A stretch of DNA of 64,000 bases from an uncultured Pseudomonadales bacterium (GTDB lineage Bacteria; Pseudomonadota; Gammaproteobacteria; Pseudomonadales; Azotimanducaceae). The notes beneath the pieces were generated by a model. It saw only the letters and a list, made by a program, of their open reading frames with translations. It did not search any database and was not told the DNA's origin. Shown piece by piece: positions 4,459-36,151 of the stretch (position 1 is its first letter; every line of letters begins with the position of its first letter). Both the position numbers and the translations under genes were made by a program. The stretch covers positions 3,084,132 to 3,148,131 of the forward strand of contig OY282519.1 of NCBI GenBank assembly GCA_958296405.1, given 5' to 3'.

Positions 4459-5699
4459 CCGAGCGTGTGGCCAGCGATGGCGCAAGCCCCCCGCGCCGGG
4501 CCCGGGCGGCCCGTTGGCGAGCCGCCGGCCTGACTTTGCCCCTGCTCGCGTTCGTCGGCATCACCTTCATCGCGCCCCTTGGCGCCATGCTGACGCGCAG
4601 CGTCTACGATCCAACGGTGGCCGACGCGCTGCCGCGCACAATGGCATTGCTTGCCGAATGGGATGGCGAAGGCCTGCCGGAAGACGGGGCATTCGCCGCC
4701 GCCGCGCAAGAACTGGTGAGCGCCCGCGCCGCGCGCTCGGTCGGGCAGTTGGCAAGCCGCGTGAACCGCATCGAAGGCGGCACGCGCAGCGTCATCACGC
4801 GCAGCGCCCGGCGGCTGGCGACCCGGGACGCGCCCGCCAGAGACACGGCGGGCTGGCGGGCAGCGCTCATCGAGGCGGATCCAGCGTGGGCCGAGCCCTT
4901 CATTTGGCGCGCCATCCGCCGCGCCGGCGAGCGCGTCACGCCGCAACACTATCTGCAGGCGCTGGATTTAGACCGGGATGTGGGCGGCGCCGTGGTGGCG
5001 CGCCCGGAAGAGCAGCGCATCTACCTCAAGCTCTTCGCGCGCACCTTGGCGGTGAGCTTGGGCGTCACGCTGCTGTGCTTGGCGCTCGGCTATCCCTTGG
5101 CCTACCTCATCGCCCAAGCGCCAGCGCATCGGGCGCGGTGGCTGTTGCTGCTGGTGCTGGTGCCCTTCTGGACCTCGCTGTTGGTGCGCACGACGTCTTG
5201 GATCGTGCTGCTGCAGTCCCAGGGCGTGTTGAACGAGGCGTTGGTGCAGTTGGGCGTCATCGCGGACAACAAACGCTTGGCCATGATTTACAACATGACC
5301 GGCTCGTTCGTCGCCATGACCCATGTGTTGTTGCCGTTCATGGTGCTGCCGCTGTATTCCGTGATGCGTGGCGTGCCCCCGTCGCACATGCGCGCCGCCA
5401 CCTCGCTGGGCGCCACCTTCCCGCAGGCCTTTCGGCGCGTGTATTGGCCACAGACGTTGCCCGGCGTCGGCGCCGGCTCGCTGTTGGTGTTCATCTTGGC
5501 GGTGGGCTACTACATCACCCCAGCCTTGGTGGGCGGGCGCACCGGGCAGCTCATCTCCAACTTCATCGCCTACCACATGCAGCAATCGCTCAACTGGGGG
5601 CTGGCCGCGGCCCTCGGCGGCATCCTGCTGGTGGGCGTTGGCGCGCTGTACTTCGTTTACGACCGGCTGGTTGGCATCGAGCGCATGCGGCTGGGATGA
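4455..5699 (+). CDS. potB: ABC transporter permease, PotB type, with large periplasmic insert
   Basis: A 414-residue inner-membrane permease. The first membrane helix (about 24-46) is followed by an insert of roughly 150 residues, rich in Arg and Ala, before the remaining helices begin near residue 195 (KLFARTLAVSLG). The cytoplasmic EAA loop that contacts the ATPase is visible as the AATSLGATFPQAF segment. The start overlaps the binding-protein stop. Importers of this group usually have two permeases (PotB and PotC), but here the next gene is on the opposite strand. The channel must therefore be a homodimer, or use a permease encoded elsewhere. Confidence 0.88.
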   Translation: MTERVASDGASPPRRARAARWRAAGLTLPLLAFVGITFIAPLGAMLTRSVYDPTVADALPRTMALLAEWDGEGLPEDGAFAAAAQELVSARAARSVGQLASRVNRIEGGTRSVITRSARRLATRDAPARDTAGWRAALIEADPAWAEPFIWRAIRRAGERVTPQHYLQALDLDRDVGGAVVARPEEQRIYLKLFARTLAVSLGVTLLCLALGYPLAYLIAQAPAHRARWLLLLVLVPFWTSLLVRTTSWIVLLQSQGVLNEALVQLGVIADNKRLAMIYNMTGSFVAMTHVLLPFMVLPLYSVMRGVPPSHMRAATSLGATFPQAFRRVYWPQTLPGVGAGSLLVFILAVGYYITPALVGGRTGQLISNFIAYHMQQSLNWGLAAALGGILLVGVGALYFVYDRLVGIERMRLG

Positions 5700-5712
5700 G
5701 TTGAGCCAGCCC

Positions 5713-6765
5713 TCAAGCGTCGTTCACGCTGCGCACGAGGTCCATCACGCGCCCAAGCGTCTGCAGCCGCTCCTCCAGCGTGGCGCCGGCCGGTTGCACC
5801 CGCAGCGTGTTCACGCCGACATCCCGATAGGCTGCGATGCGCGCCTTGACACCCGCTTCATCGCCCAGCAGGTTCGCTTCGAGGACCATCTGGTTCGGCA
5901 CCGCGGCCACCGCTTGCTCGCGCTGCCCCGATACCCAGAGCCGCTGCACTTCCTGCGCGGCATCCGCCCAGCCGCCGCGGCGGTAGGCATCGTTGTAGAA
6001 GTTCGTCCGCGCCGAGCCCATGGCACCGAGGGTGAACGCCATGCCCGGCTTGAGTGGCGCCGCCAGCGCCGCGGCATCGTCGCCAAACGCCACCAAGCCG
6101 CCGGCTTGAAGGTCTATGTCGGCGAGGGTGCGCCCGGCCGAGGCGGCGCCGCGGCGGATGTGGGCGAAGTGCGCGTCGGCATGTTCCGGCGTGAACGAGG
6201 TGCCGAGCCAACCGTCCGCCGCGGCGCCGGTGTATTCCAGCGCCTTCGGCGCGAGCGTGGCCAGATAGATGGGAATGTTCGGGTTGCCCGGCTGCGCCAA
6301 ACGCAGCGCCTTGCCTTCCCCGCCGGGCAGGGGCAGCTGATGATGCACCCCGTCGTAGGCCAGTTTCTCGCCGGCGAACGCGAGGCGCAGGATGTCCACC
6401 GTCTCGCGCATGCGCCCCAGCGGCGCCTTGAAGGGCCGCCCCTGCAGCCCCTCCACCACTTGCGGGCCGCTCGCTCCCAAGCCGAGCAGAAAGCGGTTGC
6501 CGGATACCGTGGCCATGGTCAATGCGGTCATCGCCGTCATCGACGGCGTGCGGGCGCTGATCTGCATGATGCCGGTGCCAAGGCGCACGCGCTCGGTGCG
6601 CGCCGCCAAGTAGGCAAGCGGCACGATGGCGTCCTGCCCCCAGGCTTCCGCGGACCACACGGCGTCCACCCCAAGCCGCTCCGCCTGCACCGCGAACTCC
6701 ACCTGCTCCTCGAAATCCCCGCGGCGGCCCGATGCGGCGCCACCAATGCCCACGCTCACCTTCAT
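5713..6765 (-). CDS. LLM-class (luciferase-like) flavin-dependent oxidoreductase
   Basis: A 350-residue TIM-barrel protein of the bacterial luciferase superfamily, which uses FMN or coenzyme F420 for monooxygenation or hydride transfer. Family features include the AERLGVDAVWSAE segment near the N-terminus, ERVRLGTGIMQISAR (second and third strands), and the GNRFLLGLGASGPQVVEG stretch at the cofactor phosphate site. Length is normal for the family. It is convergent with the permease gene (14 bases apart) and divergent from the cyclopropane synthase gene. The substrate is unknown, and sequence alone cannot separate the FMN and F420 subgroups. Confidence 0.85.
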   Translation of the reverse strand: MKVSVGIGGAASGRRGDFEEQVEFAVQAERLGVDAVWSAEAWGQDAIVPLAYLAARTERVRLGTGIMQISARTPSMTAMTALTMATVSGNRFLLGLGASGPQVVEGLQGRPFKAPLGRMRETVDILRLAFAGEKLAYDGVHHQLPLPGGEGKALRLAQPGNPNIPIYLATLAPKALEYTGAAADGWLGTSFTPEHADAHFAHIRRGAASAGRTLADIDLQAGGLVAFGDDAAALAAPLKPGMAFTLGAMGSARTNFYNDAYRRGGWADAAQEVQRLWVSGQREQAVAAVPNQMVLEANLLGDEAGVKARIAAYRDVGVNTLRVQPAGATLEERLQTLGRVMDLVRSVNDA

Positions 6766-25023: not shown

Positions 25024-27387
25024 GTGTTCGCGCTGTCGGCGCTCATCCTCGCCGCCTCGGCTACCGCGTCAACCCTGCCGGCCGATGCGGCGCTGTTACT
25101 CGAGCGCTTGCCGGACACGGTGCAGGTGAGCGTCGATGGGCACTTGGACGAAGCCGTTTGGCGGCGTCTGCCGGCGCAGGGCGCCTTCCGCACCGTAAGC
25201 CCCACTACCTTGGCGCCGGTCTCCCTGGCCACCCAAGTGCGCTTCTTCTACACGGACGAAGGCCTCTACTTGGGCGCCACGATGGAACAGGACCCGGCCA
25301 CCATGGTCGAGCGCTTGAGTTCGCGGGACCAAGGCCATCTGAACCGGGATTACTTCTCCTTCACCTTGGACACTTCCGGCGAGGGGCGTTACGGCTTCTG
25401 GTTCCAACTCAGCTTGGGCGACAGCGTCTCCGACGGCACCATCCTCCCCGAGCGCGAGTACAGCCGCAGTTGGGATGGCGCTTGGCATGGCGCCACCGCG
25501 CGCTCCGAACGCGGTTGGACGGCGGAGTTCTTCATTCCGTGGGCTTTGATGGCGATGCCGGAAGCATCGGGGCAGCGCGCCCTCGGCTTCTATGCATCGC
25601 GCCATGTGGCGCACTTGGACGAGCGCTGGGCATGGCCGCCGTTGACTTGGAGCAACCCCAAGTTCCTCTCGGAGTTTCAACCGCTCACGGTGGAAGCCGT
25701 GAACCCGCGCCAAGGGTACAGCGTGTTTCCTTACGCATCGAGCACGTTCGATGGCATTGCCGGCGACACTTCGGGCAAGGTCGGCGCGGATGTGTTCTGG
25801 CGCCCTTCGAGCGATTTCCAGCTCACAGCCACCATCAACCCAGACTTCGGCAACGTTGAGGTGGACGACGTCATCGTCAACCTCTCGGCGTTCGAGACGT
25901 TCTATCCCGAGAAGCGCTTGTTCTTCCAAGAGAGGCAGGAAGTGTTCGTGACCAGCCCGCGCGCCAGTGGCTGGCGCCGCGCTGGCCCATTGACGCTGCT
26001 GCACACGCGTCGCATCGGTGGCCGCCCGGATGTGCCGAATTTGCCCGCCGACCTCAGCGTCTCGAGCATAGAGCTGGGCCGCCCATCAAAGCTCCTAGCC
26101 GCGGCGAAGGCGACGGGCCAATCTGGGCGGCTGCGCTACGGTGCGCTCGGCGCCTTCGAAGGGGAAAGCGCCCTGCACGGCGTGATGCCCGACGGCGGGC
26201 GCGTCAAGTTTCACCAGGATGGGCGAGATTTCGGCGCCCTGCGCCTACTCTACGAAGACAGCAACGCGGGCTATCGGGCGCTCGGCTGGATGTCCACCGC
26301 AACGTGGCACGAATACGGGGCGGCGCGCGTCCACGCCGTGGACGGGCACTTGTTCAGCGACGATGGCAAGTGGAAGGCGGATGGGCAACTCATGTCCTCC
26401 GAAACGCCCCACAGCGCGACTGGCTATGGCGGTTTCGTGGACATCAATTGGACGCCGCGCCACGGCTTGACACACTCGCTGGCCCTCGATCGGTTCGACG
26501 ACGCGCTCGACATCAATGACTTGGGCTACCTGCGACGCAACGATCTCACCCGCTACGCCTATCGCATGCGGATGCGCCGCACCGACCTTGAGTGGGCCCG
26601 CGACAGCTTCACTGGGTTCTCCGCCCGCCGGGGATACAACGGCACCAACGAGTTGGTGGATGCGCAAATCGACATGTGGCAGGAGTTCCGCTTGCCTAAT
26701 CTCTCCGAGGTGGAGCTTTGGGGTGGTTTCCGCCCCGCCGCGTTTGACGATCGCAACGGCTATGACGCGGGGAGTTTCCGCATCGACAGCGGCTGGGCCG
26801 CCGGCGTTGAGTACGAATCCGATCACTCGCGGCGCTTCGCCTATGAAGTGGGGCTGAGCTGGAACGAAGAGGCGTTGCGCGGCGCGCAGTTGGGCTACGC
26901 CGGCGAAGTGACGTGGCGGCCCACCGATCGCGTCACCATGCAAGCATCGCTGGATTATGTGGTGCGCGACGGTTGGCTGCTCCATCAGGGCGACCGGTCG
27001 TTCACTGCCTTCGAGACCGAAGAGTGGCTGCCGAGCGTCAACGTGGATTACTTCATCAACGCCAAGCACCAATTCCGCATGGCGCTGCAATGGGTGGGCA
27101 TTGCCGCCACCGGCGCAGCGCTTTACGAACTGCCGCAGGGCCGCCGAGAGCTTGCCGCCATCGCCGGCGCACCGGATGACGACGACTTCACCATTTCGGA
27201 GCTCAACTTCCAGCTACGCTACCGTTGGGAACTGGCGCCGATGTCTGATCTCTTCGTCGTCTACACCAAGAACGCGCGGCTGCCGAGTGCCGCCGGCGCG
27301 AGCTTCTCAGACCTCTTTGCCGACGCCTTCAGCGACCCGCTGGCGGAGCACTTGGTGGTGAAGCTGCGCTATCGGCTCGGTTCTTGA
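25024..27387 (+). CDS. DUF5916 outer-membrane barrel with CBM9-like N-domain
   Basis: A 787-residue exported protein. After a signal peptide (about 1-16) comes a CBM9-like beta-sandwich (about 30-225; VDGHLDEAVWRRLP and YFSFTLDTSGEGRYGF). A long C-terminal region of alternating strands ends in an aromatic-bracketed LVVKLRYRLGS, predicting an outer-membrane beta-barrel. NPDFGNVEVDD and FETFYPEKRLFF are DUF5916 hallmarks. Role unknown; similar proteins are common in marine bacteria and may bind oligosaccharides or take up organic compounds. GTG start, one base after the SPOR gene stop. Confidence 0.85.
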   Translation: MFALSALILAASATASTLPADAALLLERLPDTVQVSVDGHLDEAVWRRLPAQGAFRTVSPTTLAPVSLATQVRFFYTDEGLYLGATMEQDPATMVERLSSRDQGHLNRDYFSFTLDTSGEGRYGFWFQLSLGDSVSDGTILPEREYSRSWDGAWHGATARSERGWTAEFFIPWALMAMPEASGQRALGFYASRHVAHLDERWAWPPLTWSNPKFLSEFQPLTVEAVNPRQGYSVFPYASSTFDGIAGDTSGKVGADVFWRPSSDFQLTATINPDFGNVEVDDVIVNLSAFETFYPEKRLFFQERQEVFVTSPRASGWRRAGPLTLLHTRRIGGRPDVPNLPADLSVSSIELGRPSKLLAAAKATGQSGRLRYGALGAFEGESALHGVMPDGGRVKFHQDGRDFGALRLLYEDSNAGYRALGWMSTATWHEYGAARVHAVDGHLFSDDGKWKADGQLMSSETPHSATGYGGFVDINWTPRHGLTHSLALDRFDDALDINDLGYLRRNDLTRYAYRMRMRRTDLEWARDSFTGFSARRGYNGTNELVDAQIDMWQEFRLPNLSEVELWGGFRPAAFDDRNGYDAGSFRIDSGWAAGVEYESDHSRRFAYEVGLSWNEEALRGAQLGYAGEVTWRPTDRVTMQASLDYVVRDGWLLHQGDRSFTAFETEEWLPSVNVDYFINAKHQFRMALQWVGIAATGAALYELPQGRRELAAIAGAPDDDDFTISELNFQLRYRWELAPMSDLFVVYTKNARLPSAAGASFSDLFADAFSDPLAEHLVVKLRYRLGS

Positions 27388-29107: not shown

Positions 29108-30274
29108 TCAGCGCGCGGGTTGCGCCGACCGCCCGTATTGGGCGAGACGCGGCACCGCGCTCACCGCCATGCGGTAGTAACGCTCATCCTTTTCCACACC
29201 CACGCTTGGGTAGCCCACGGCCTCGGCGGCAGCCACGGTGGACCCGGAACCGCAGAACGTGTCCAAGACCACGCCCTCGCCAAGCGGCAGCGCTCCGAAG
29301 ACGACCTGACGCAGGAAATCCTGCGGCTTCAGGCTGGGGTGGGGCGCCAGCGCGCGCTCTTCCTTGCGAGTTGGCGCGGAGCGGATGACGTCTCCGAAGG
29401 GTTGGCCGCGAGTTGGGCGGCGGAAGCCACCAGTGCGCCACCGGCGCAGATTCTCCCGCACCGTGCCGGCAAGCGGCTTGCGGAACACCAGCCACGGCTC
29501 CCACATCGAACGCGGCATCACGCTCACTTCCGGAAACTCCCGGTGTGCGCCCTTCGGCCGGTCTCCACCGCGCATGGTGGTGACGAGGCGAACGATCTCA
29601 CCGCGTCGCTCCAAGCCCGCCTGCGCCAGCGCCCCGGACACCACATAGGAGAGCAAGGGATTCGCTGCCACCACGACGTTGGCACCGGGCACCAGCGTTG
29701 GCATGAGCAGCGCACCCCAGTGAAAGAAGAACTCCGCAAGCGCCTCGCGATCTTGCGGCCTCAACACGGTGAACCTAGGCACCGGCGACCGCTCGACGCC
29801 ATCGAACGCCGGCGGCAACCGCCACACGCCGCCCTTGCCTTGGCGCAGCTTGCCCTGCTCCTTGGACGTGTACTCGACAAGGCCATAGGGCGGATCAGTG
29901 ACCACGGCATGAAACGTGTTCGGCGCTTGGCGTGTCAGCCACGCCATGCAATCCGCATGGAACAACTTTGCTTGGCCAACGGTTGCCGCGCAGCCCTCGC
30001 CGGCTTCAGCCTCAGTCGCCACCACTGCCGCGCCCGCCAAACGGTAGTGGCCACGCCGGATGCGCGTACACAGCCGAGGCGTGTTGAGCCGGAGATAGGA
30101 ACGGATGCTGGATTCCGACACGTCGCCCAACACGCGCCGCGCATCGTCCACGATCTGGCGCACCGAAGCGCCAGCCGGGCGTGCCCTCAAGGACGCAAGC
30201 ACAGCATCACGCACGGCACCGGGCTGCTTTCTGTTCACCGCCGGCGTCTGCAACTGCCACCTCGTGTACGGCAC
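29108..30274 (-). CDS. DNA methyltransferase of a type II restriction-modification system
   Basis: A 388-residue SAM-dependent DNA methyltransferase. Residues 12-80 form a winged-helix-like domain (RKQPGAVRDAVLASLR and SSIRSYLRLNTPR). Motif IV, TDPPYG, is at 126-131, and motif I (LDTFCGSGSTVAAAE) comes near residue 345, so the motif order is the permuted beta class. That motif IV fits N6-adenine or N4-cytosine methylation; the base cannot be decided. GTG start at 30274. The restriction gene at 30453 is divergent, with a palindrome between them. Target site unknown. Confidence 0.85.
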   Translation of the reverse strand: MPYTRWQLQTPAVNRKQPGAVRDAVLASLRARPAGASVRQIVDDARRVLGDVSESSIRSYLRLNTPRLCTRIRRGHYRLAGAAVVATEAEAGEGCAATVGQAKLFHADCMAWLTRQAPNTFHAVVTDPPYGLVEYTSKEQGKLRQGKGGVWRLPPAFDGVERSPVPRFTVLRPQDREALAEFFFHWGALLMPTLVPGANVVVAANPLLSYVVSGALAQAGLERRGEIVRLVTTMRGGDRPKGAHREFPEVSVMPRSMWEPWLVFRKPLAGTVRENLRRWRTGGFRRPTRGQPFGDVIRSAPTRKEERALAPHPSLKPQDFLRQVVFGALPLGEGVVLDTFCGSGSTVAAAEAVGYPSVGVEKDERYYRMAVSAVPRLAQYGRSAQPAR

Positions 30275-30452: not shown

Positions 30453-31061
30453 GTGCCGGGGCAGTCCAAGAATCACGTCGCCAGCAATCGCTTCAATCCG
30501 GACGCAGACTTGCCGTACTCCCTTCGGCTCGTCGATTTTGAAGTTGCCATGCAGGATGTTTACGATCTCTTTTTTGACATCAACACGCTGCTCATCAACC
30601 GCGGGCTGCATCGGCTCGAAGAGATGCTGCGACCGGCCGCTATGTCAGGGCTGCTCTCTGACTTGCTGACCGCCAGTCTGGCGAAGCACTCGCGGGGGCT
30701 CACCGAGAACAAGTACCCCAACGGCCATCCAGACTTGATAGTCAAGGGCGTCTATCCGCACGACAGCGTCCAGTCCGGATCGGAGGGCGTTGAGATCAAG
30801 TCGACGAGGAAAAGGGGCGGCGGCGTCGACACGCACGGGGCACGGGACCAGTGGATATGTGTGTTTGTCCACGCCGTCGACAATGTCACTGAACCTGCAC
30901 ACGATCGATCGCCGATGTCGTTCAAGGAGGTATATCTGGCACAGGTCGAGGTTCGCGACTTCCGCCGCAATGAGCGTGGTGAGCTAGGCACGCGAACGGC
31001 AACTCTGCACAGGGCTGGACTCGCCAAACTTCGGGAGCACTGGATTTACAGAGCCGGCTGA
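30453..31061 (+). CDS. type II restriction endonuclease, PD-(D/E)XK
   Basis: A 202-residue protein. GHPDLIV (92-98) and VEIKST (113-118) supply the PD...(E)xK catalytic motif of restriction enzymes, with Glu114 and Lys116. Residues 1-85 are helical and may bind DNA or the dimer partner. Size and position divergent from a DNA methyltransferase support an endonuclease of a complete type II system. GTG start at 30453 with GAGAGG upstream. No homologous specificity can be named. It faces the selenoprotein gene convergently. Confidence 0.75.
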   Translation: MPGQSKNHVASNRFNPDADLPYSLRLVDFEVAMQDVYDLFFDINTLLINRGLHRLEEMLRPAAMSGLLSDLLTASLAKHSRGLTENKYPNGHPDLIVKGVYPHDSVQSGSEGVEIKSTRKRGGGVDTHGARDQWICVFVHAVDNVTEPAHDRSPMSFKEVYLAQVEVRDFRRNERGELGTRTATLHRAGLAKLREHWIYRAG

Positions 31062-31191: not shown

Positions 31192-32337
31192 CTACGAATC
31201 CAGCGGCATCAAGAACCGCCACATCGGTTCCTGCACGCCCGCTTCGCGCATGGCGTCCCGAGCCTTGCGGATGACTTCGCCAGTTCTCGTTTGGTCGCGG
31301 AACCAACGGTAGCCGGCCCACGCGGCCGGCGTGTGGTCCGCGATGGCCAATGCAGCCGTTTCGTAGTAGCCGCGGATGTCTTGCGACACGCGGGCAGGAA
31401 TGCCGGGGATGCCGGCCTGCTTCCACGGCTCGCCTTCGGCGACTCGAATGAACGCCTCGATGGCGGCGGGGACGGCATCGGCGTCCAGCAATCGCACGGC
31501 GCCGGCGCGCTTGCCGAACTTTGCCACGGCGCGTTCGTAAGCCGGGCGCAGGCCCTTGGCTTCGTCAACCGCCGGATGCGCGTCTGGATCCATACGCGCC
31601 GGCAATGGGCACGCCAGCGTTTGCGAATCGTCCTCTTCGATCACCACATCATAGTCTTCAAGGGCTGGCTCGGTGCGCTCAAGCAGCCCGAAGGCGCGTT
31701 CGATGACGCGACGCTGGAAGGACGCATCGTTCGGCACGCCAAGCGGCCGCCCGAGCGGGAAGTCGCAAAACAGGCCGCGTGGCGGCGCGGTGCCGTAGAG
31801 CTGTTCGCGGATCGAACCGATGGCGACGGTGGCGATGCCAGCGGCCTCAAAGACATGCGCGAGCGTACAGACCGTACGCGTGCAGAGGGGTCAGACCGGG
31901 GTGAGGAGCACCACGTCCACGCCGTGCTCGGCGAGGTGCTTGGCGCCGGCAGGGCCACCGTCCATGCGTATCGCCGCCAGATCGAACTGGTTGCCGGCGA
32001 ACGCCATGTGGATGTCTGAGACGCTGCCGATGGCGCCGTCCGCCGCCATCTCCTCCAGGCGGTCGATGGGGAACACCACGTTGAGATCGGCGGTGACGCC
32101 GCTGGCGTCGAAATTGGGGCTCCAATGGCCGACCACGATGTCGCGGCGGTGGCGGTGGAGCACACGGTAGCCGGCGTCAGACACGCCGAAGTCGTCATCG
32201 TCCTCATGGTGCAGCGACGCCGACGACACGAGGGCCACTTTCGCTTCCGACAACGGCTTCGGCGTGGTGAAAGCCGTCGCATCGAACGTTGGGCACGGGA
32301 CCCGTGACGCCCCCTGCTTGATGGAACGATCGCTCAT
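31192..32337 (-). CDS. selenoprotein, glycine/sarcosine/betaine/D-proline reductase B family
   Basis: A 381-residue reading frame containing one in-frame TGA at 31893-31891, codon 149, read here as selenocysteine. Around it the protein reads VVLLTPV-U-PLCTRTVC, a U-x-x-C redox motif of the GrdB/PrdB-type family, and homology continues on both sides: VFEAAGIATVAIG and FCDFPLGRPLG follow. A hairpin with the bacterial SECIS loop GGTCT starts 11 bases after the TGA. The ATG at 32337 has AAGGA upstream; another in-frame start at 32382 lacks support. Clostridial relatives reduce glycine or proline; proteobacterial ones have no assigned substrate. Without Sec decoding the product would stop at residue 148. 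Confidence 0.88.
31863..31879 (-). promoter_or_regulatory. SECIS-like hairpin for selenocysteine insertion
   Basis: On the minus strand, GCGTAC, loop GGTCT, and GTACGC form a perfect 6-bp hairpin. The loop starts 17 bases after the TGA codon. In E. coli formate dehydrogenase mRNAs, the SelB-binding SECIS has the same GGUCU loop at 18 bases. The match in loop sequence and spacing is strong evidence of function. Confidence 0.85.
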
Positions 32338-33954: not shown

Positions 33955-35277
33955 ATGACACCGCCGGCCCGGCAGGTTTGGTTCATGCCCCCAATGCGTC
34001 AGAGTTCACTGTTCCCCGAACCTGCGCCGCCCCGGTACGCGGAGCACACCGCCGGCAGCTTTGTCGGCAACATGGACGCCCCGGTGCATCGGTGGTTCCG
34101 CTACAGCGCCGGGTTCAGCGGCGCTTGGGCTGCGGACCTCATCGCCAGCGAAGCCGAGGAGCGGCCAGTGCGCGTTCTCGACCCCTTCGCGGGCAGCGCC
34201 ACCACGCTCATCGCCGCCGAACAATGTGGCGCCGAGTCCTGCGGCCTAGATTCCCACCCCTTCGTCGCGCGTGTTGCGCACGCCAAGCTCGCGTACCGTT
34301 CCTCGCCGAGCGACTACCGGCGCACAGCGGCCCGAGTGCTTGCGCGCGCCAAGCGCATCGAGCCGGACCTGGCCTCCTATGCCCCACTCATCCGCCGGTG
34401 CTACTCGGACGATGCGTTGCGGCAACTGGACTGCCTGCGGCGGGCCGTGGAGAGTGTTGACGGCGACTCCGCGCCCGGCCGCCTAGCTTGGCTGACTCTG
34501 GCCGCCATTTTGCGCCCGACTTCCCATGTGGGCACGGCAAACTGGCAGTACCTGTTGCCGGACCGGCGCAAAGCGCGAGTCGCGGTGCCGTTCGCGGCGT
34601 TCCAAGCGATGGCCCAAGTCATCCAAGACGACATGGAGGCAATCGGCGGCGTCACGGGGCCGCGGGCTGATTTCGGCTTGGGCGATGCCCGCACCTGCGC
34701 GGGTTTGCCGGACCGGCGGTTCAACCTCGTGGTCACCTCTCCGCCCTATCCCAACAACTACGACTATGCAGACGCCACGCGCCTAGAGCTCACCTTCTTC
34801 GGCGAGGTGCGCGGTTGGGGAGATTTGCAGCAACACATCAGACAGCATCTGCTGCGCTCCTGCACACAACACGTCCCAAACAGCGCCGTCGATCTCGACG
34901 AAGTGCTGAGCAGCCCAGAACTCGCGCCAATCGCCACACAAATGCGAAGCACATGTACGCGGTTGGGGGAGATTCGATTGGTCCGCGGCGGCAAGAAGAC
35001 CTACCACAACATGGTGGCTTGCTACTTCTTGGATCTCGCCCAAGTCTGGCGGGCATTGCGGCGCGTGTGCCAGTCGCCATGCCGGGTGTGCTTCGTCATC
35101 GGGGATTCGGCGCCGTACGGCGTCTACGTTCCGGTGGTGGAGTGGCTGAGCGAACTCGCGCTGGCGGCCGGGTTCCGGTCCACGTCCTTCGAGAAGACGC
35201 GCGACCGCAATACGAAGTGGAAGAACCGCAAGCACCGCGTTCCCCTCTGCGAGGGGCGGATGTGGGCACTGGGTTAG
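33955..35277 (+). CDS. DNA methyltransferase (SPPY type, probably N4-cytosine)
   Basis: A 440-residue SAM-dependent DNA methyltransferase. Motif I is VLDPFAGSATT (74-84) and motif IV is TSPPYPNNYDY (261-271). SPPY is typical of N4-cytosine methyltransferases, and the order I-then-IV differs from the enzyme at 29108. A long helical region (about 110-240) between the motifs may recognise the target. The start could be ATG 33955 or internal ATGs 33985 and 33994; the first conserved residues are near 30. It lies just before a restriction endonuclease gene on the same strand, forming a tandem restriction-modification unit. Confidence 0.83.
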   Translation: MTPPARQVWFMPPMRQSSLFPEPAPPRYAEHTAGSFVGNMDAPVHRWFRYSAGFSGAWAADLIASEAEERPVRVLDPFAGSATTLIAAEQCGAESCGLDSHPFVARVAHAKLAYRSSPSDYRRTAARVLARAKRIEPDLASYAPLIRRCYSDDALRQLDCLRRAVESVDGDSAPGRLAWLTLAAILRPTSHVGTANWQYLLPDRRKARVAVPFAAFQAMAQVIQDDMEAIGGVTGPRADFGLGDARTCAGLPDRRFNLVVTSPPYPNNYDYADATRLELTFFGEVRGWGDLQQHIRQHLLRSCTQHVPNSAVDLDEVLSSPELAPIATQMRSTCTRLGEIRLVRGGKKTYHNMVACYFLDLAQVWRALRRVCQSPCRVCFVIGDSAPYGVYVPVVEWLSELALAAGFRSTSFEKTRDRNTKWKNRKHRVPLCEGRMWALG

Positions 35278-35359: not shown

Positions 35360-36151
35360 ATGGCGCACGAGTTCGGCCCGTACTTGGACCACCAGCATCC
35401 GCGGCCGGTGCGGGGCGGCAAGACGAAGGTGAAGTGGCAAGATTCCTACGGCAACAGCCACGATTTGGACTATGTGTTGGAGGACGGCGGCACCGAAGAG
35501 AGGCTAGGACATCCGCGAGCCTTCATCGAGATCGCATGGCGCAAGTATACGAAACACTCTAGGAACAAGGTGCAGGAAATCCAAAGCGCCGTCTTGCCAC
35601 TGGCTGAGACTCACCGGCACACGGCGCCGTTCCTAGGCGCCGTGCTGGCCGGCGACTTCACGGAGAGCGCACGGGATCAGTTGCGCTCACACGGCTTCCA
35701 TGTCGCCTACGCCAGCTACGGGATGATCTTGCAGGCGTTCCGCAATGTCGGTGTCGACGTCTCCTCGGATGAGGCCACGCCCGTGGCGGAGTTACGCCGC
35801 AAGGTCAGGTCATACGAGGCACTCCCGGCCCATGACCGGCAGACGATCAGCGCCGAGATCGCCAGCGTGTGCGCCAGCGAGTTCGATCCCTTCTTCCAAT
35901 CGCTGCGGAGTTGCCTGGAACGGCGTGTCACACAGGTTGCGGTGCTGGCCTTGTCGGGCACATCAGTCCGCTTCGAAGCCATCGACGGCGCCATCCACTT
36001 CATTGAGGGCTACGATGAAGCGACGCCTGCAAGCCGCTTCGATCACTACGAGCTAACTGTTCGCTACTCGAATGGTCGGGAAGTGCGAGGATCGTTCCCG
36101 GACAAACAGGATTGCGTCAGTTTCTTGCGTTTGCTGGGGCGAGCGGGATGA
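35360..36151 (+). CDS. restriction endonuclease partner of the SPPY methyltransferase
   Basis: A 263-residue protein from ATG 35360. DLDYVLE (35-41) followed by AFIEIAWRKYTKHSRNK (54-70) has the acidic and basic residues of a PD-(D/E)XK nuclease core, in the form common to small type II endonucleases paired with SPPY methyltransferases. In-frame sequence upstream of this ATG (KLGQIIGDEVEAAIGSRLRA) looks like the family N-terminus, but contains no ATG, GTG or TTG before reaching the methyltransferase. The real start may therefore be non-standard, or translation may come by frameshift from the upstream gene. Function inferred from motif and position. Confidence 0.7.
   Translation: MAHEFGPYLDHQHPRPVRGGKTKVKWQDSYGNSHDLDYVLEDGGTEERLGHPRAFIEIAWRKYTKHSRNKVQEIQSAVLPLAETHRHTAPFLGAVLAGDFTESARDQLRSHGFHVAYASYGMILQAFRNVGVDVSSDEATPVAELRRKVRSYEALPAHDRQTISAEIASVCASEFDPFFQSLRSCLERRVTQVAVLALSGTSVRFEAIDGAIHFIEGYDEATPASRFDHYELTVRYSNGREVRGSFPDKQDCVSFLRLLGRAG

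Follow-up and report, generated by a model that had tools for sequence, protein, structure and literature searches.

A PrdB-like selenoprotein gene with a covarying SECIS-like hairpin and a C-terminal extension in an uncultured Pseudomonadales bacterium

Analysis of a 64,000-nucleotide stretch of contig OY282519.1 from an uncultured Pseudomonadales bacterium (referred to as the window) pointed to a gene for one selenoprotein of 381 residues, in which a PrdB-like domain would be followed by a helical C-terminal domain, and which would act as a selenol reductase without partner subunits; the probability of this reading was estimated at about 0.6. As judged from sequence comparison, UGA 149 is almost certainly read as selenocysteine (Sec) by the SelA, SelB, SelD and tRNA-Sec of the same genome, with the hairpin at 31863–31879 serving as the SECIS element. 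PrdB-type selenoproteins as such are known; what is added here is an extended, partner-free variant, its spread in one lineage, and its mismatch with the proline reductase label.

The gene, its in-frame TGA and the SECIS-like hairpin

Translation gave a single frame with an ATG start, 381 codons and a terminal TAG, and the only interruption was the TGA at codon 149, as the original prediction had stated. The TGA was located in the context VVLLTPV-U-PLC, which bears out the U-x-x-C motif described there. It is plausible that standard annotation would split the gene into two hypothetical ones. The features are listed in Table 1.

Table 1. Features of the selenoprotein gene (positions in the window)
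Feature	Position	Strand	Basis
PrdB-like selenoprotein gene, 381 residues, predicted Sec codon 149	31192–32337	−	Frame, family matches, relatives, dN/dS
TGA codon 149, predicted to be read as selenocysteine (motif U-P-L-C)	31891–31893	−	TGA at this site in 61/61 frames
SECIS-like hairpin, 6-bp stem GCGTAC/GTACGC, loop GGTCT	31863–31879	−	Covariation in 60-sequence alignment
PrdB-like domain, residues 24–220	31678–32268	−	TIGR04483, 114.6 bits, model positions 22–219 of 238
C-terminal extension, residues 221–381, mostly helical, Cys243 conserved	31195–31677	−	Alignment, AlphaFold2; absent from the PrdB compared

The search for the decoding machinery showed that selA, selB, selD and tRNA-Sec were all present above the cut-offs in the window genome (one contig of 3.83 Mb, 98% complete), in agreement with the earlier proposal that this genome decodes Sec. 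On this contig, selA was found at 3032580–3033920 (514.5 bits), selB immediately behind it at 3033938–3035773 (376.4 bits), selD at 2468163 (267.7 bits), and tRNA-Sec at 3042485 (Rfam 69.7 bits; anticodon TCA by ARAGORN). Read by eye, SelD was the Cys form (RCGGCGAK), and its frame also included a pyridine-nucleotide-oxidoreductase-like part. TGA was the stop of seven of the eight flanking ORFs; the ORF ends had been set by counting TGA among the stops, and one ORF (30453–31061) was without a family match. General recoding is therefore unlikely and recoding looks local, and a genome-wide use of TGA as an amino acid was rejected.

The perfect 6-bp stem with a GGTCT loop 17 bases past the TGA, as first described, was recovered in the sequence (GCGTAC-GGTCT-GTACGC). 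Judged from the window sequence by itself, this hairpin counts as weak evidence. The check that had been suggested, folding the RNA around 31863–31893, was uninformative for a single sequence; three stretches gave z values of −0.97, −0.67, and −0.09 against shuffles, and proof of a SECIS element by this route was rejected. A perfect 6-bp stem at exactly the same spacing followed 2 of the 1509 TGA triplets that the window has on its two strands, and a TGA with a GGTCT loop at the same distance arose in 31 of 100 shuffled windows. An Rfam scan returned four weak matches (E up to 10), none of them over the hairpin.

The hairpin is more than chance because it is conserved across relatives. The TGA and the hairpin were in register across 60 aligned genes (56 distinct rows), and in the 42-base alignment the hairpin positions (15–20/26–31) paired in 96.7% of 336 pair cells. 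When the hairpin was shifted along the alignment, pairing was at most 66.7%. Five of the six stem pairs had changed on both sides, with 46 double-changed cells compared with 11.5 in shuffles, and RNAalifold recovered the same helix unaided. A downstream hairpin backed by covariation, as expected of a bacterial selenoprotein gene, was found in these 60 genes. The loop letters GGTCT varied among the relatives (CGTGA, CTTGT, CGTGT, and others). In the 61st gene (locus L099), which was outside this alignment, the TGA was present and only the inner four of the six pairs were formed.

Relatives, selection and distribution

Sixty loci were fetched, picked non-randomly among the better matches of the family search, and two of them carried sel genes instead. 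The TGA was at the same site in all 61 gene frames read, including that of the window gene, and in 60 of the 61 frames it was the sole TGA of the aligned part, located at the U-P-x-C motif. The SECIS alignment consisted of 60 frames, with L099 left out (the script took only the first HMMER segment); the protein alignment consisted of 53 of those 60, without near-duplicates and the truncated L082. Among the matches listed in the family search, inspection by eye found one TGA each, with the exception of G016:C81, a C-terminal piece with no TGA, and G044:C21, which had three TGA and one TAG.

The window gene was compared with six relatives that were 68–99% identical over the upstream part (gaps excluded; L051 was three residues longer), and dN/dS was 0.02–0.24 upstream and 0.04–0.16 downstream of the TGA. 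The low values downstream show that this part is selected in the same frame. Homologues that end or shift frame at the TGA had been named in advance as the case against a selenoprotein; in the relatives compared, the downstream part was conserved in frame. Cys replaced Sec in five homologues, the gammaproteobacterial L107, L108, and L110 and the alphaproteobacterial L119 and L120, all of the short type, and the homologues compared included no long-type form with Cys. At position 149, the check proposed earlier thus found Sec in those bacterial PrdB genes that were read, and the five short-type homologues had Cys.

These results bear on the reading in which translation truly ends at the TGA and the frame represents a pseudogene or a pair of neighbouring genes. 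Such a reading would account for a stop codon in frame and for a window hairpin that folds no better than many shuffles, but it is very improbable in view of the TGA kept in all the gene frames read, the hairpin covariation in 60 of them, the purifying selection in the same frame downstream, the Cys in place of the TGA in five homologues, and the complete Sec machinery of the genome. For a selenoprotein, coding in the same frame on both sides of the TGA, the sel machinery and a Sec/Cys pair in homologues are expected, and all of these were found.

Twelve positions were invariant both in the 53-sequence alignment and in a 10-row alignment that included true PrdB: D84, P90, U149, C152, E164, G167, T170, P186, R187, G196, G200, and Q208. 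In a FastTree phylogeny of 71 sequences, for which PrdB was chosen as the root, the four PrdB were separated from the 67 others with a support of 0.97. The window gene was placed in a clade of 21 sequences (0.97) within a clade of 57 long forms (0.99), and the five Cys forms were all in the short clade.

With a single-protein query, a homologue was found in 131 of 150 genomes of its own family, the window genome included, and some genomes had six or seven matches. In the class sample (275 genomes drawn, asked for at ≥85% completeness), the window genome and 4 of the 274 others matched, the query here being the 53-sequence profile and thus different from that of the family search. The gene family is common, and often multicopy, in one gammaproteobacterial lineage. 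The nearest named records were five contigs of uncultured Pseudomonadales and Gammaproteobacteria MAGs. Of the 150 family genomes, 122 had selB at a threshold of E 1e-60; the gene and selB occurred together in 109, selB alone in 13, the gene alone in 22, and neither in 6, a co-occurrence that was non-significant (p 0.13). Several of the 22 genomes with a homologue and no selB match at this threshold were incomplete MAGs.

Partner subunits and gene neighbourhood

The PrdA/GrdE-type family PF09338 had no match in the window genome (98% complete, one contig), while four of four control plasmids were positive, and GrdA (PF04723) had no match there either, with two of two controls positive. Neither the PrdA of D-proline reductase nor the GrdA and GrdE of GrdB systems was therefore detected in this genome. 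Among the 150 family genomes, 149 were without a PF09338 match; the sole GrdE-type match was G015:C195:56878–58110 (468.8 bits), and a true reductase of the glycine/betaine type may be present in that genome.

Both neighbours of the window gene were on the opposite strand. A P450 gene began 140 bases upstream in divergent orientation, and an opposite-strand ORF ended 130 bases downstream. Among the 21 orthologous loci, several of them short contigs, any given neighbour family was present at 6 at most, and a conserved gene partner was rejected. As the gene stands alone and no PrdA/GrdE or GrdA was found, it is unlikely to belong to a D-proline or glycine reductase as known.

The Pfam matches of 105 flanking ORFs included PhyH (6), MFS (5), glyoxalase (4), GST (3), MAPEG (2), and P450 (2). 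These ORFs came from a list of 182 references to flanking ORFs, out of 225 neighbours in total, and since the counts were too few and had no control, no function was drawn from them.

The selenoprotein/P450 pair was flanked by Type II DNA methyltransferase genes at 29108–30274 (−) and 33955–35277 (+), and a Type II restriction enzyme gene followed the second at 35360–36151 (+; PADLOC 156.5 bits). The ORF at 30453–31061 (+), beside the first methyltransferase, was without a match in Pfam or PADLOC and might encode the restriction enzyme belonging to it. This places the selenoprotein gene between two likely restriction-modification modules. A protein with a DUF5916 match was encoded near this region at 25024–27387 (+).

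A further selenoprotein gene in the window genome, a short-type one, lay at G000:C1:947480–948280 (−), with the motif U-P-V-C-H-Q (L065); its downstream gene had a Beta-lactamase (PF00144) match and overlapped it by 4 bases. In a paralogous clade (L087, L089, L093, and L094), an ORF of 152–172 codons overlapped the selenoprotein gene at its end by 4–11 bases, which suggests an operon. The overlapping ORF in L087 encoded a glyoxalase/VOC-type protein.

Proposed function and comparison with known systems

The read-through protein matched Pfam GRDB (PF07355) with 29.6 bits, above the gathering threshold of 22, over residues 13–146. The best NCBIfam match was the PrdB equivalog TIGR04483, at 114.6 bits compared with a cut-off of 300; the GrdB subfamily TIGR01918 reached 41.5 compared with 65.45, and NF040794 (GrdF, 50.3 bits) and NF040795 (GrdH, 42.5 bits) were far under their cut-offs. 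The original assignment to a GrdB/PrdB-type protein therefore held at the level of the superfamily. It was refined in that the protein was PrdB-like rather than GrdB-like, that it had an extra C-terminal domain, and that the partner subunits of both known systems were not found in the genome.

Marine "PrdB" selenoproteins have been labelled as genuine PrdB subunits of D-proline reductase, and the Sargasso and GOS papers, in the parts used here, count such proteins as proline reductase. PrdB as the best NCBIfam match, with nearly the whole model covered, and Sec at the same aligned codon would agree with this identity for the window protein. It is improbable, however, given the score far below the cut-off, the lack of a PrdA-type match in a genome search with a positive control, the motif UPLC instead of UGTC, the 160 extra residues, and the tree split with a support of 0.97. 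The proline reductase label is unlikely here because the search gave no partner, whereas selection on the Sec codon is strong.

AlphaFold2 predicted the whole protein with a pLDDT of 92.3 and a pTM of 0.91. Cys243, in the extension, was conserved in at least 90% of the 53-sequence alignment and was missing from the two short-type rows printed there. The short clade was without the extension, and for its member in the window genome no partner was found either; the extension therefore does more than, or something other than, stand in for the partner. A true PrdB used as the structure query gave weak matches only, the best to asparaginase (E 0.01).

As U149, C152, D84, E164, R187, and Q208 were kept in both the window family and PrdB, the window family has probably retained PrdB's selenol chemistry. 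For PrdB and GrdB, attack of the selenium on a substrate carbon with a leaving group has been proposed. The chances that the window protein is a soluble, partner-free selenol reductase appear about even. In such an enzyme, Sec149 would attack a substrate carbon bearing a good leaving group, the leaving group would be displaced, and Cys152, perhaps with Cys243, would resolve the selenium adduct; the role of Cys243 is a guess. The resulting Se-S bridge would then be reduced by cellular thiols. The C-terminal domain may bind the substrate, as PrdA or GrdE does elsewhere, but the short clade without this domain argues against its being essential.

No pyruvoyl subunit was found that could form a Schiff base, which makes D-proline, glycine and sarcosine unlikely substrates, and the substrate should therefore already bear a good leaving group. 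A betaine-, sulfonium-, halo- or similarly activated substrate is more likely, and the protein perhaps cleaves an activated C-X bond. FarE/GrdI with FarB provides a pyruvoyl-free precedent, and selenium attack on carbon has been proposed, in part, for FarB; according to the portion of that paper used here, the betaine and fluoroacetate reductases keep a GrdE-type subunit (PMC10838667). The use of this subunit by FarB and GrdH speaks against a partner-free enzyme, since none was found in the window genome.

In a less probable but serious rival to the partner-free reductase, the protein has a plain redox role, as a general thiol/selenol oxidoreductase of the peroxide, disulfide or methionine-sulfoxide type with U-x-x-C as the redox motif. 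UxxC is described as a common redox motif in selenoproteins (PMC2398784), and the GST, MAPEG, glyoxalase, and P450 genes near family members would fit detoxification, but these neighbour counts were small and had no control. The family matches were to PrdB and GRDB and to no thioredoxin-like family. A PDB profile search gave a protein disulfide oxidoreductase as the best match (E 0.61), and Foldseek of the model against solved structures gave a best E of 0.015; neither was significant.

Beyond the partner-free reductase itself, a wider proposal is tentative. The family might form an uncharacterised selenoenzyme class of probably marine and aerobic Gammaproteobacteria, with a PrdB-like catalytic domain and its own substrate-binding C-terminal domain, reductively cleaving activated carbon-heteroatom or carbon-halogen bonds without a pyruvoyl subunit or GrdA, and its long and short paralogues (up to seven matches per genome) might have diversified for different substrates. 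An aerobic life of the lineage is suggested by the P450 and dioxygenase genes that adjoin some family members. Selenoproteins are rarely retained by aerobic bacteria according to the part of a 2026 review used here (PMC13188914); a lineage carrying numerous genes of this kind would make an instructive exception. If such a class exists, the marine metagenome counts of "proline reductase" would largely describe something else. For testing the reaction, the present case offers aligned sequences, a SECIS hairpin with covariation, the set of invariant residues and a structure predicted with confidence.

In the portions of the literature used here, 42 PrdB-type selenoprotein sequences with UxxC were reported from the Sargasso Sea (PMC1088965), and 235 PrdB-type sequences with Sec and 110 Cys homologues from GOS (PMC2398784). 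D-proline reductase (TIGR04483, UxxC) is a listed family in the 2026 review, and "proline reductase" made up 6.4% of marine metagenome selenoproteins, among the commoner labels (PMC9402790). The literature search, mostly outside subscription papers, found no description of a partner-free, extended PrdB-like form.

Comparison with four annotated PrdB from plasmids showed 26–33% identity, the U-x-x-C motif and shared invariant residues over about 200 residues, and the four plasmid genes had TGA at the same aligned codon. The window protein differed from them in its motif (UPLC; UGTCHR in the plasmid genes), in about 160 extra C-terminal residues, and in the lack of a PrdA-type match beside the gene or in the genome, whereas three of the plasmid genes adjoined an annotated prdA and the fourth had a PF09338 match ending just upstream.

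GrdB, GrdF, GrdH, and FarB belong to the same superfamily as the window protein through PF07355. UxxCxxC is given as the GrdB motif in the part of PMC13188914 used here, while the window protein reads UPLCTRT and is without this motif; in a GrdB-type gene of a Photobacterium plasmid, the corresponding sequence is UGTCTRC. The window genome also differed from GrdB systems in having no GrdE or GrdA match. The Photobacterium gene (sp. DA100, L121) was a frame at about 4900–5800 with an in-frame TGA; the record had two GrdA matches with one TGA each, and its displayed stretch carried no annotated features.

Homologues annotated as "Glycine/sarcosine/betaine reductase selenoprotein B family protein" were found in the Alphaproteobacteria Roseomonas (L119) and Haematobacter (L120). 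Like the window gene, they had no annotated prdA in the 12-kb stretches shown; unlike it, they had Cys (NCPVCHQ and NCPICHQ), were 302 and 308 residues long, and fell in the short clade.

The "proline reductase PrdB" of marine metagenomes, assigned to pfam07355 in the part of PMC2398784 used here, shared with the window protein the UxxC motif, Sec, and marine bacteria as the source; judged by these descriptions, the two probably belong to the same broad group. The parts of the two metagenome papers used here assign these proteins no function other than proline reduction. The window gene is a variant of these PrdB-type selenoproteins and lies outside true PrdB.
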